DNA of 64,000 nucleotides from Oscillospiraceae bacterium (GTDB taxonomy: Bacteria > Bacillota > Clostridia > Oscillospirales > Oscillospiraceae): contig WQWC01000002.1 in NCBI GenBank assembly GCA_009785525.1, positions 60,814 through 124,813 on the forward strand. Direction: 5' to 3'. A program made the translations under genes and the position numbers. Of this stretch, positions 60,081 through 64,000 are shown one piece after another. The stretch's first letter is position 1, and each line of letters opens with the position of its first letter. The notes under the pieces were generated by a model. That model was not told where the DNA came from and made no database searches. It saw nothing but the letters and a program-made list of their open reading frames with translations.

Positions 60081-63000
60081 TCACCCCACTACAACACTAT
60101 CCAGCCCCAGCATTTCTTGCAGCTCAGTCACCAACGCCTGGTGAATCACGCAATTCGTGCCGATTTTCTTCTTTGTATCATCAAAATACATCACCATTTT
60201 CTCACGGCCCGGGAACATGTCCAGCACCAGCTTGAATCGCTCGTATTCCTCAGATTCTTCGCTGCTGATCTTGACGAATATTTTTCGATCCTCCGGCTGT
60301 TCGGTGAGCGCCGGCTCCGGAGTCTTCGCCGCATCCATGGTCAGTTCTCGCATGGAGTTTATCACTATCTGCGGCGGCTTTTCATCGCGGTGCGACACCC
60401 TGCCTTGGATTATTACGCGTTCGCCGATTCGTATCAGGCCATCGCTGTCGTCCAACGTCCGTTGGAAGGCGATCAGCTCGATATTCCCGGTGGCGTCTTC
60501 AATCTCCAGATACGCCATCAGTCCGCCGTTGCGGGTCGGCTTGAATTTCGTGGCGGTGATAATCCCGGCGATTGTCACGTCCATGTTGTCGCGGAACCGA
60601 GTTTTGTCTTCATCCGTCAAAATCTCGCCTATTGGGGCGGCTCCTATCGACTTTAACGCGTCTGTGAACTCATCCATCGGGTGGCCGGACAAGTACAGAC
60701 CCGTCACCTCGCGCTCCATACGCAGCAGCTCCATTTTTGAATAGTCTTCCATCTCCGGAATCGTGATTTCACCCTGTTCCGAATCTTCTGGCTTATCCGC
60801 CGACATGCCGAACAAATCTATCTGCCCTGCCACGTTTTTTCTATGATGCTCCGCAATTGAGTCAATTATCATTTCAAACGTCGTCATCAACCGGCGGCGG
60901 TTTATGCCGAACTCATCAAAACAGCCGGATTTTATCAAACTCTCCACTGCGCGCTTGTTCAGGTCGTGGCCATACATTCGCTGGCAGAATTGATACAGGC
61001 CGGTGAACGGCCCCGCCGCCTCGCGTTCCCGCATCAGCTCGCTTATAAATCCGCGCCCGATGTTTTTTAACGCCACAAGGCCGAATCTTATATTCTCGCC
61101 CTCCACTTTAAACATCGCGTCGGACTCGTTGACGCTCGGCGGCAAAAGGCGGATCCCAAGCTCACGGCATTCTGCTGTGTATTCCGCGACTTTTTCAGCC
61201 CAACCGAGGATTGAGCTCATCAAGGATGCCATGTATTCCCGTGGATAATGACACTTTAAATACGCCGTCTGATACGCCACCACGGCATACGCCACGGCGT
61301 GGGATTTGTTGAACGCGTAATTGGCGAAATCCAGAATCTCGTCATATATTCCGTTGGCGATCTCCCGCGGAATCCCGTTTGCAACGGCCCCGGCAATTCC
61401 GCGTTCGGCATCGCCTTCGATAAACGATTTCCGCTCCCGCTCTATTTCGTCGCCTTTTTTCTTCGATATCGCGCGGCGGATCATGTCGGCCTGCCCCAAG
61501 GAGAATCCGCCGAGCCGCCGAAATATTTCAATCACCTGCTCTTGGTACACGATGCAACCGTAAGTAACTTCCAGAATCGGCACCAGTGACGGGTGCTTGT
61601 ACGTGATTTTCGACGGGTCGCGGCTGGACTCCAGGAACCGCGGGATCGAATCCATCGGCCCTGGGCGGTACAGCGAGATAATCGAGGCGATGTCATCAAT
61701 ATTTTTAGGCCCCAGCCCGACCGACACACCGGTCATGCCTTGGGACTCAATCTGGAACACGCCGGACGTCTTGCCGTCAGCCAACAACTTAAACGTCGCG
61801 GCATCGTCTTCCGGGATGGCTTCGATTGTGAATTCAGGGCCGCCCCTACGGTTTATCATTTTCACCGTGTCATCTATTACTGTCAAGTTCCGCAGGCCGA
61901 GGAAGTCCATTTTTAAGAGACCCAACTCTTCAAGCGTACCCATCGTGTATTGTGTGGCGATTGAATTGTCTTTTTTCGACAACGTCAGCGGCACATATTC
62001 CTGCACCGGGCGCTTTGTTATTACAATCCCGGCGGCGTGGGTGCCGGGGTCTTTCGGCATGTCTTCCAAGGCGAGACTCAAGTCAATCACGCGGCGGATT
62101 CTGTCGTCGGTGTCATACCTCCGCCGCAGATTCGGGGATGTTTGCAATGCGTCCGCTAGACGTATGTTCAGTACGGTCGGAATCTCTTTAGCCAGCTCAT
62201 TCTCCTCGGCAAATGACAATCCCATCGCTTTCGCGACTGATCTGACCGCATTTTTCGCTTTCAGTGTGTTGAACGTCATAATCTGCGCAACATGGTCTTC
62301 GCCGTACTTGGCTTTGACGTAATCGATAACTTCACTGCGCCGGCGCTCACAGAAATCTATGTCAATATCGGGCATACTGATCCGCTCCGGGTTCAAAAAC
62401 CGCTCGAATATCAGCCCGTATTTTATCGGATCCACGGCAGTGATGCCCAGGCAATACGACACAACACTCCCAGCGGCGGAACCTCTTCCCGGGCCGACAG
62501 GGATCCCCTGATTTTTCGCGAATGCAATAAAGTCGGCGACTATCAGCATGTATCCAGTGAAACCCATTTTGGAGAGCATCGCAAGCTCAAAATCCAGCCG
62601 CTCTAATATCTCCGGATCCCCCGCGTCGTACAGGCGGCCCAGCCCTTCCATACACAACTTTCGCAAATACGCATCCGCGTCCGATTCACCTTCCGGCAAC
62701 TGGAACTCCGGCAAATGCAGTTCGCCGAACTCGAAATCCAGCTGGCACTGCGCGGCAATTTTCGCGGCATTGTCAATCGCCTCCGGGTGGTCGGGAAACA
62801 ACGCCCGCATCTCATCCTCGGACTTGAGGTAAAGCTCCTGATTATCAAATTTCAGCCGGTCCGCATCATAGATAGTCTTGCCCATTTGAATGCACATCAG
62901 GACATCCTGCGCTTCGGCGTCGTCGCGATTTATATAATGTGCGTCGTTAGTCGCGACCAGCGGAATCCCTGTTTCATCGTGAATGCGTATCAGTCCGGCG

Positions 63001-63554
63001 TTGACCTCCGGTTCATCCGGCAAGTTGTGTTTTTGCAGCTCCAGATAAAATCCGTCCGTGAATATATCTCGCAGTTCCGCGGCTTTTTTGAGCGCCGCGT
63101 CATGCTGCCCAGCGAGAATCAGCTGCGGAATCTCGCCCGAAACACACCCGGACAGGGCGATTATGCCCGCGCTGTGTTCACGCAACAGGTCAATATCCAC
63201 ACGCGGTTTCTGGTAAAACCCCTCTGTAAACGATAGGCTGACCATCTGGCACAGGTTCTGGTATCCGCTTAGGTCTTTGCATAACAGAACCAGATGGAAC
63301 CTCGCGGAATCTTCCTTGTACTCCATATCAAACCGCGTGCGCGGCGCGACGTATACTTCACAGCCGATAACCGGGTTGATTCCGGCCTTCTTCGCGGCTT
63401 TGTAGAAGCTGACAGCTCCGTACATCACGCCATGGTCGGTGATGGCAAGACTATCCTGCCCCAGCTCTTTGGCGCGGGCAACGAGGTCAGTAATCCGGCA
63501 AGCGCCGTCAAGCAGGCTGTATTCTGTGTGTACATGCAAGTGGGCGAATGGCAT
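60081..63554 (-). CDS. dnaE: DNA polymerase III subunit alpha
   Basis: MPFAHLHVHTEYSLLDGACRI; VGPGRGSAAGSVVSYCLGI; PDIDIDFCERRR; PKDPGTHAAGIVI; C-terminal OB-fold. Confidence 0.98.
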   Translation of the reverse strand: MPFAHLHVHTEYSLLDGACRITDLVARAKELGQDSLAITDHGVMYGAVSFYKAAKKAGINPVIGCEVYVAPRTRFDMEYKEDSARFHLVLLCKDLSGYQNLCQMVSLSFTEGFYQKPRVDIDLLREHSAGIIALSGCVSGEIPQLILAGQHDAALKKAAELRDIFTDGFYLELQKHNLPDEPEVNAGLIRIHDETGIPLVATNDAHYINRDDAEAQDVLMCIQMGKTIYDADRLKFDNQELYLKSEDEMRALFPDHPEAIDNAAKIAAQCQLDFEFGELHLPEFQLPEGESDADAYLRKLCMEGLGRLYDAGDPEILERLDFELAMLSKMGFTGYMLIVADFIAFAKNQGIPVGPGRGSAAGSVVSYCLGITAVDPIKYGLIFERFLNPERISMPDIDIDFCERRRSEVIDYVKAKYGEDHVAQIMTFNTLKAKNAVRSVAKAMGLSFAEENELAKEIPTVLNIRLADALQTSPNLRRRYDTDDRIRRVIDLSLALEDMPKDPGTHAAGIVITKRPVQEYVPLTLSKKDNSIATQYTMGTLEELGLLKMDFLGLRNLTVIDDTVKMINRRGGPEFTIEAIPEDDAATFKLLADGKTSGVFQIESQGMTGVSVGLGPKNIDDIASIISLYRPGPMDSIPRFLESSRDPSKITYKHPSLVPILEVTYGCIVYQEQVIEIFRRLGGFSLGQADMIRRAISKKKGDEIERERKSFIEGDAERGIAGAVANGIPREIANGIYDEILDFANYAFNKSHAVAYAVVAYQTAYLKCHYPREYMASLMSSILGWAEKVAEYTAECRELGIRLLPPSVNESDAMFKVEGENIRFGLVALKNIGRGFISELMREREAAGPFTGLYQFCQRMYGHDLNKRAVESLIKSGCFDEFGINRRRLMTTFEMIIDSIAEHHRKNVAGQIDLFGMSADKPEDSEQGEITIPEMEDYSKMELLRMEREVTGLYLSGHPMDEFTDALKSIGAAPIGEILTDEDKTRFRDNMDVTIAGIITATKFKPTRNGGLMAYLEIEDATGNIELIAFQRTLDDSDGLIRIGERVIIQGRVSHRDEKPPQIVINSMRELTMDAAKTPEPALTEQPEDRKIFVKISSEESEEYERFKLVLDMFPGREKMVMYFDDTKKKIGTNCVIHQALVTELQEMLGLDSVVVG

Positions 63555-63580
63555 GGCTGCGTCCTTTCTTATAGCAGGTC

Positions 63581-63610
63581 TTGACAGGTGATGGTTGTGT
63601 GTGGTATACT
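63581..63610 (+). promoter_or_regulatory. Predicted promoter TTGACA-18-TATACT for an antisense/convergent small RNA
   Basis: ttgacaggtgatggttgtgtgtggtatact in the dnaE 5' region on the + strand. Confidence 0.6.
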
Positions 63611-63616
63611 GTCTAT

Positions 63617-63701
63617 ACAAAGAGGAACTGTCGCTTTTCGTATGGCGGCTCAGTCCTTTATTAGAATGTTTGAGACGCCTTAACTGTTAAGGCGTCTCGA
63701 A
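63617..63701 (+). ncRNA. Candidate type I antitoxin sRNA
   Basis: Begins after the TTGACA/TATACT promoter; runs to the 12-bp hairpin 63672-63698 at the toxin 3' end. Confidence 0.4.
63672..63698. terminator. 12-bp perfect hairpin gagacgccttaa-ctg-ttaaggcgtctc (possible bidirectional terminator)
   Basis: Perfect inverted repeat between toxin stop codon and convergent promoter; no strong T run on either strand. Confidence 0.55.
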
Positions 63702-63800
63702 TCATTTATCGCTGTTGTCGTTATTAAATAACGTGTAACAGAGAGTAACAACCGCTACGATTACCATTGTATACACGAAAAGTGCATCATATGTAACCAT
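63702..63800 (-). CDS. Putative holin-like type I toxin, MVTYDALFVYTMVIVAVVTLCYTLFNNDNSDK
   Basis: M-x-T-Y-[DE]-[AS]-L start typical of holin-like toxins, single TM, charged tail; strong RBS AAAGGGGGTGATGAT. Confidence 0.7.
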   Translation of the reverse strand: MVTYDALFVYTMVIVAVVTLCYTLFNNDNSDK

Positions 63801-63855
63801 ATCATCACCCCCTTTGCAAGAGAGTGACCGAGTCGCCAAGCGACAGTTCCTAGTT

Positions 63856-63884
63856 ATTATATCTCATACTTTTACTTTTTGCAA
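63856..63884 (-). promoter_or_regulatory. Promoter TTGCAA-17-TATAAT for the holin-like toxin mRNA
   Basis: Reverse complement TTGCAA AAAGTAAAAGTATGAGA TATAAT; predicted start near 63849. Confidence 0.7.
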
Positions 63885-64000
63885 AATAAACTTCATGCAA
63901 GCTGCGTTACACCCCGATGAATGAAAACGAGGTGTAAGTCCGGGATTGTTATGGTATACTTTATTGCGCACGGCATCAGGTCGGCTTTTTTTGCCGCTAC

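Follow-up and report, generated by a model that had tools for sequence, protein, structure and literature searches.

The predicted toxin-antitoxin locus and its inverted repeat

The window, which is the whole stretch of 64,000 nucleotides that was analysed, carries close to its end a small cassette that lies upstream of dnaE (60081-63557, minus strand) and whose toxin gene is on the same strand as dnaE (Table 1). The toxin peptide of the window matches the Pfam family Hol_Tox (PF16935) with an E value of 5e-4, which is under the curated cut-off. Hol_Tox is matched by 25 of 29 homologous peptides, with a best value of 3.3e-8, and it is the only credible family; none of the toxin peptides gave a match to Fst in Pfam. 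From its sequence, the cassette would be a BsrG/TxpA-type (Hol_Tox) type I toxin-antitoxin locus and thus belong to a known type of system, with toxicity and repression by the antitoxin as predicted properties.

Two convergent sigma-70-like promoters face the arms of an inverted repeat, and of all promoter-like sites in the 19.5 kb that were scanned they are the top two. The -35 box of the antitoxin promoter is exactly TTGACA in most cassettes. The repeat, AGGAACTGTCGCTT / AAGCGACAGTTCCT, is perfect over 14 nt, and both arms were found where a sequence-only reading of the window had placed them, 201 nt apart. This reading had also described the neighbouring sequence as partly complementary. 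Indeed, complementarity continues beyond the arms into the flanks GGCGGCTCAGTCC (63644-63656, plus strand) and GACCGAGTCGCC (63826-63837, plus strand), and on the toxin strand GGCGACTCGGTC and GGACTGAGCCGCC pair at 11 of 12 positions, one of these pairs being a G.U. By an arithmetic estimate, about 0.05 exact 14-mers with arms within about 230 nt are expected by chance in 64 kb. It is conservation that settles the matter: the repeat is kept at the same place in other copies of the same genome and in 36 intact cassettes, and had it been absent from orthologous loci, this would have counted against the sequence-only reading. The 14-nt inverted repeat is therefore real and not a product of chance.

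A 121-bp repeat adjoins the toxin promoter and overlaps its -35 region. It occupies positions 63880-64000, where the window ends together with the contig, and has nine near-identical copies in the genome, several of which occupy the first ~120 bases of contigs. It is probably the end of an insertion sequence or of another repeat at which the assembly breaks.

Table 1. Positions of the features discussed in the text (P1, proposed helix between the two ends of the toxin mRNA; SD, Shine-Dalgarno; L175, L177 and L178 lie outside the window)
Feature	Position	Strand	Basis or remark
Inverted-repeat copy 1, AGGAACTGTCGCTT	63623-63636		sequence
Inverted-repeat copy 2, AAGCGACAGTTCCT	63838-63851		sequence
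Antitoxin promoter, TTGACA-18-TATACT	63581..63610	+	11/12 matches, best in 19.5 kb
Predicted antitoxin RNA (~95 nt): A-rich leader, 5' hairpin, linker, terminator hairpin	63617..63712	+	promoter, covariance model
P1 3' strand (arm b' 63644-63656; arm a' 63623-63636 = repeat copy)	63623..63656	-	
Middle hairpin, TTTGAGACGCCTTAAC/GTTAAGGCGTCTCGAA, directly past toxin stop codon	63669..63701	.	repeat search; compensatory changes
Toxin ORF, 32 aa, hydrophobic, MVTYDALFVYTMVIVAVVTLCYTLFNNDNSDK	63702..63800	-	translation, Hol_Tox match
SD region, AAAGGGGG	63808..63815	-	sequence; predicted to be sequestered by upstream CU-rich sequence
Upstream anti-SD strand, GTCACTCTCTTGC, GTC common to P1 end	63816..63828	-	SD-stem covariation; two partner sets
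P1 5' strand (arm a 63838-63851 = repeat copy; arm b 63826-63837), predicted toxin mRNA 5' end	63826..63851	-	
Toxin promoter, TTTGCA-18-TATAAT	63856..63885	-	promoter scan
L175	G000:C8:2736-2865		Hol_Tox-like locus
L177	C9:29252-29383		Hol_Tox-like locus
L178	C47:10544-10797		Hol_Tox-like locus

Relatives and distribution

The 36 distinct intact cassettes that were extracted come from at least four genera in two families and have the repeat at both ends. A search of the window's own genome for further copies, which the sequence-only reading had suggested, found intact or decayed cassettes on C8, C6, C1, C20 and C37; together with the window cassette on C2, those on C8 and C6 are intact, and those on C20 and C37 are decayed. 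In the cassette on C1 (L003), a 118-bp insert in the toxin leader (1383-1500; G000:C1:74711-74828) stands in place of the SD and start codon. This insert, which has partial relatives on C23 and C37, may be a small mobile repeat by which the toxin was inactivated.

Cassettes or parts of them occur in 12 of 19 congeneric genomes, and a search of the GTDB collection with the antitoxin signature returned 18 stretches, all titled Oscillospiraceae MAGs, which we take from their isolate names to be of termite-gut origin. The antitoxin covariance model R1, built on 22 members, gave 9 and 10 matches in two genomes of another genus (g10) and led to further cassettes in genera g107 and g197 of the second family, so that a genome can hold up to 9-10 cassettes. 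Of the weak R1 matches (E above 1e-8) outside g1, g10 and f2, the inspected ones (L071-L089) have the look of ordinary terminator hairpins beside other genes, and a second cassette-like match in G007 (L103) is merely a terminator-like hairpin.

Several copies are incomplete or unusually arranged. Apparently intact antitoxin RNA genes lie beside missing or truncated toxin genes at L024, L026, L035, L039 and L041, and these orphan antitoxins are perhaps able to act on toxin copies elsewhere. L005, L006 and L104 are cassettes decayed by internal deletions, and in L104 the toxin arm and the antitoxin arm are nearly fused into a single hairpin. At L066 / L098 (G027:C11:53600-55200), three cassettes follow each other within ~1.2 kb in alternating orientation and lie between near-identical spacers of ~100 bp.

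Predicted transcripts and their ends

In 34 of 36 cassettes the predicted toxin -10 box ends 5-9 nt (median 7) ahead of the toxin arm; the predicted antitoxin -10 box ends 11-16 nt (median 13) ahead of the antitoxin arm. With this spacing, transcription of the toxin RNA is expected to start at the arm itself and that of the antitoxin RNA about 6 nt ahead of its arm, in an A-rich leader. Toxin and antitoxin RNAs are thus predicted to begin with the same ~25-30 nt, and the -10 box positions in the 36 cassettes agree with the earlier proposal that both convergent transcripts start with the same sequence.

In the toxin direction, at least five T are found in the first 10 nt past the second arm in 30 of 36 cassettes, and a T-tract follows the middle hairpin in 10. 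In the antitoxin direction a T-tract follows the middle hairpin in 28 of 36, and because the T-richer side faces this direction, the antitoxin 3' end is placed here; the middle hairpin is likely the antitoxin terminator, which overlaps the toxin mRNA. The pattern of T-tracts therefore suggests a toxin mRNA that spans both arms (63850 to ~63616, about 235 nt) and an antitoxin that stops at the middle hairpin. With these ends, the entire antitoxin would be complementary to the 3' part of the mRNA.

The repeat as a probable terminal helix of the toxin mRNA

We think it likely that the two copies of the repeat belong to the two strands of a helix of ~24 bp, P1, which ties the full-length toxin mRNA of a BsrG-like locus together at its 5' and 3' ends, and that the antitoxin starts inside this helix. 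P1, the geometry of the arms and the promoters are supported by comparison of the cassette sequences. Over the 24 pairs in 36 cassettes, 96.5% of the cells are paired, whereas shuffles reach 94.0% and slid strands no more than 49%, and 33 cells are double-changed, against 11.2+-2.8 in shuffles (0 of 500); double changes occur in nine pairs. An earlier set of 31 sequences gave 96.4% paired cells and 31 double-changed cells, compared with 11 in shuffles. When seven possible arm pairings were tested, strong covariation was found only between the toxin 5' arm a and the toxin 3' arm a' (0.176 vs 0.048+-0.014), with little or none in the other six. A trans pairing of the toxin arm with the antitoxin arm gave a weak signal and was set aside, as were local 5' hairpins, with a covariation not above shuffles, as the source of the likeness of the arms. 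As the 5'-3' pairing of the toxin mRNA is the only one clearly supported by covariation and the local hairpins are not, we identify the repeat with P1.

Individual changes can be followed between groups. A C-G pair is replaced by U-A between genera (GGAACTG/CAGTTCC in g1 vs GGAATTG/CAATTCC in g10), a G-C pair by A-U in family f2 (GAAACTG/CAGTTTC), and in G001 a one-base deletion is matched at both ends of P1. Pair 20-241 of P1 is broken in 10 of 36 cassettes. In a tree-based test of independent pairs, the best column pair had 2.8 of 4 pairs in the right direction and essentially none in the opposite one, a result from few events in an underpowered test. The arms could also stay alike through gene conversion or template switching between them.

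Folding leads to the same helix. RNAalifold picks P1 unaided, and P1 is predicted with a probability of 0.99 in the toxin RNA and of 0.31 when the 3' end is shuffled. Cognate ends pair with -41.5 kcal/mol, compared with -37.4 for swapped ends and -40.4 for swaps within a genome, and 0 of 10,000 permutations were as good as the cognate ends; P1 is also ~23 kcal/mol better than both local hairpins together. Covariation across homologues (36 cassettes) and RNA folding, two of the checks named in the sequence-only reading, hence both speak for a 5'-3' helix. That reading had assigned the helix to a read-through toxin mRNA. The helix is supported, but the RNA that closes into P1 looks like the normal full-length mRNA and not like read-through, as 30 of the 36 cassettes have a T-tract past the second arm.

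The arms might also be alike through a common need for a 5' hairpin, through gene conversion or through a site for a common regulator, with no 5'-3' pairing at all. Each arm can indeed form a hairpin, the four arm segments are mutually related, and although 20 of 20 arm-a transitions keep a wobble pair, as P1 predicts, pairing of the antitoxin hairpin on both DNA strands could also cause this. However, besides the lack of covariation above shuffles in the local hairpins, several copies have a break in the middle of the toxin hairpin (column pair 9-20, unpaired in 7 of 31), the long-range pairing is stronger by more than 20 kcal/mol, and gene conversion alone would not favour G.U-compatible differences. 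We regard this explanation as quite improbable. In particular, the common regulator that had been considered earlier is not needed at the DNA level and would not explain changes that preserve pairing.

It had further been suggested that the repeats bound a mobile unit of ~230 bp. The number of cassettes per genome would fit such a unit, as would their differing positions, given that the other g1 genomes have no cassette upstream of dnaE where this region is readable. However, the homology does not stop at the arm on the antitoxin side but runs ~42 nt past it to the antitoxin -35 box (63581), the other end being the toxin-side arm. There is no transposase, decayed copies arise through internal deletion and not through excision, and the arms behave as RNA strands under a pairing constraint. 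A mobile unit is therefore a highly unlikely origin of the repeat.

With the repeat as P1, the similarity of the two RNA starts would have a simple reason: both would begin alike because the antitoxin starts inside one strand of P1, namely the 3' strand, read from the other DNA strand. The P1 3' strand can also be read as a GC-rich hairpin with a T-tract behind it, and this T-tract, which comes immediately after the GC-rich arm, is the A-rich antitoxin leader seen on the toxin strand. The toxin mRNA probably ends on the P1 3' strand, and the same strand read backwards would be the antitoxin start. The toxin terminator would then be the reverse complement of the antitoxin 5' hairpin and A-rich leader, with transcript ends that we infer.

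The Shine-Dalgarno stem and a proposed switch

The toxin gene has a strong SD, whose stem has 94.6% of its cells paired and covariation above shuffles. At its base this stem contains GUC (63826-63828), the same nucleotides with which P1 ends, and both pairings are conserved. In L092 and L101, U26 is changed to C along with a matching change in both partners, although these two triple changes may not be independent of each other. The SD is predicted to be paired in full-length and in 3'-truncated toxin RNA alike, and as it appears sequestered with or without P1, P1 alone would not be an on-off switch. Without the 3' region, 27 of the 36 cassettes are predicted to have a longer SD stem, 5 an equal one and 4 a shorter one, as computed by omitting this region and not by modelling the antitoxin for each cassette. 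In the window the predicted stem grows from 8 to 11 bp without P1, and likewise in a cofold with the antitoxin; the modelled effect of removing P1 is modest. The antitoxin is predicted to bind with -97.5 kcal/mol to the full-length and with -37.3 kcal/mol to the truncated toxin mRNA.

In Bacillus subtilis, binding of SR4 lengthens the SD stem of bsrG from 4 to 8 bp (PMC7430163). As the SD-stem growth predicted here resembles this case and the GUC is common to both helices, we propose an extension of the SD stem that is driven by the antitoxin. In the resting state, the free toxin mRNA would be closed by P1 and the SD held in its local stem. Being complementary to the toxin 3' UTR over its full length, the antitoxin would pair with the P1 3' strand and thereby open P1, and the freed GUC of the P1 5' strand would lengthen the SD stem and block translation more tightly. 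The long antitoxin/toxin duplex would finally be a substrate for RNase III and be cleaved. What the data support here are the pairings; the functional steps we infer from the model.

Through a direct repeat, AGAGAGTRAC (63740-63749 and 63819-63828), the toxin ORF itself contains a second CU-rich sequence that resembles an anti-SD. This recalls the sequential anti-SD elements of aapA3, but folding gives it little weight.

As an alternative to the extension of the SD stem, a fold-back similar to that of hok and AapA mRNAs can be considered, in which P1 keeps the full-length mRNA translationally inert and protected until slow 3' trimming to the middle hairpin takes away the P1 3' strand, activates the mRNA and makes it the target of the antitoxin. 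A long-distance 5'-3' interaction together with mRNA activation by 3' processing is known for hok and for aapA1/aapA3 (PMC6733600), the middle hairpin would stop 3' exonucleases, and the predicted antitoxin binding is strong to the full-length mRNA and weaker but present to the truncated form. However, P1 contains no anti-SD, and its removal is predicted to leave the SD paired in an even longer stem; moreover, activating processing seems to be absent from the par and txpA mRNAs of Gram-positive bacteria (PMC11228461). We therefore find this mechanism rather doubtful.

Another main role for P1 would be to terminate the toxin mRNA and to seal both of its ends against RNases, as the upstream helix of RNA I of pAD1 does, with no part in translation. 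End protection of this kind is the role of the 5'-UH of pAD1 (PMC7472228), a transcription start at the beginning of the arm, as predicted, would leave the 5' end of the mRNA base-paired, and the unpaired A-rich leader of the antitoxin fits a stable toxin mRNA and a labile antitoxin. As the main role of P1 this is possible but not probable, and it leaves unexplained why the last P1 bases belong to the SD stem and change together with both partners. End protection is compatible with the P1 reading as an added role.

Further Hol_Tox-like loci

Searching the same genome with the BsrG model (Rfam RF01412) revealed three further Hol_Tox-like loci with complementary 5' and 3' ends (Table 1). The model scores are 17.1 bits for the window, 29 for L004 and 37.9 for L175, with a cut-off of 55, and in the window region none of the Rfam families passed its threshold. 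The toxin RNA of the window does align with the SD stem of the model. In the Rfam consensus an outer 5'-3' helix runs from model position 1 to the 3' region with the SD stem inside, and the cassette family of the window has the same plan. L178 has a 5'-3' helix followed by a separate terminator and is thus BsrG-like. The arms of L175 and L177 (GGCGTTG...GGTTAGC) are unrelated to the window repeat, yet both loci have its layout, with matching RNA starts and a terminator merged into P1. The compact form, in which the antitoxin starts inside P1, is hence present in at least two sequence-unrelated groups of one genome.

A bolder idea, which we consider unlikely as a whole, is that the locus acts as a compact RNA switch that senses the antitoxin. 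The same leader nucleotides of the toxin mRNA would pair with either the mRNA 3' end or the SD stem, and the antitoxin, with a 5' end that copies the one of the toxin RNA, could attack both ends of the mRNA, using perfect antisense pairing for the 3' strand and strand exchange for the 5' hairpin. A single sequence would then be toxin start, toxin terminator, antitoxin start and regulatory helix, and this design would have been reached more than once in one genome from unrelated sequences.

Comparison with known systems

The cassettes extend BsrG-like type I toxin-antitoxin regulation to uncultured gut Oscillospiraceae, with up to about ten copies per genome, and provide comparative evidence for a 5'-3' helix in Hol_Tox mRNAs. 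They raise the testable question whether an antitoxin can repress by opening a terminal helix so that the SD stem can grow. The compact layout, with promoter, arm and terminator in one repeat, is also a simple signature for finding unannotated toxin-antitoxin loci.

Among systems other than the BsrG type, hok/Sok and aapA/IsoA also have a long-distance 5'-3' interaction of the toxin mRNA that is supported by covariation (PMC6733600). In aapA3 the 3' end sequesters the SD (PMC6733600), whereas the end of P1 directly precedes the SD stem. Loss of the 3' end, which frees the translation start in hok and AapA mRNAs, is predicted to leave the SD paired here. The par locus of pAD1 (fst/RNA II) likewise has convergent promoters, a small toxin mRNA of ~230 nt, an SD stem-loop and a sequestered 5' end (PMC7472228), but its toxin belongs to a family other than Hol_Tox. 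Its DNA repeats are direct and make the two RNAs complementary near the toxin start, in contrast to the inverted repeats described here, which would give identical RNA 5' ends; the sequence-only reading had correctly drawn this distinction (PMC7472228). Systems of the par type also have a bidirectional terminator common to both RNAs; here the middle hairpin has a T-tract on the antitoxin side in 28 of 36 cassettes and on the toxin side in 10. The txpA/RatA system of B. subtilis has a toxin of a related family, an antisense RNA that overlaps the 3' part and an SD in a short stem, the surroundings of which are left unchanged by RatA binding (PMC7430163). Common 5' ends are not described for txpA/RatA in the literature covered.

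Closest are bsrG/SR4 and bsrE/SR5 of B. subtilis (RF01412), which have a small Hol_Tox peptide, a convergent antitoxin complementary to the 3' region of the mRNA, the SD in a local stem and the outer 5'-3' helix P1 in the Rfam consensus. The BsrG model differs in having a separate terminator after P1, whereas here the P1 3' strand is itself the likely terminator. SR5 (163 nt) overlaps bsrE by only 114 bp (PMC7430163) and thus starts outside, in contrast to the antitoxin described here, which would start inside P1 and so give both RNAs a common 5' sequence. This start inside P1, with its common 5' sequence, is best read as the predicted novelty of these cassettes with respect to the BsrG type.
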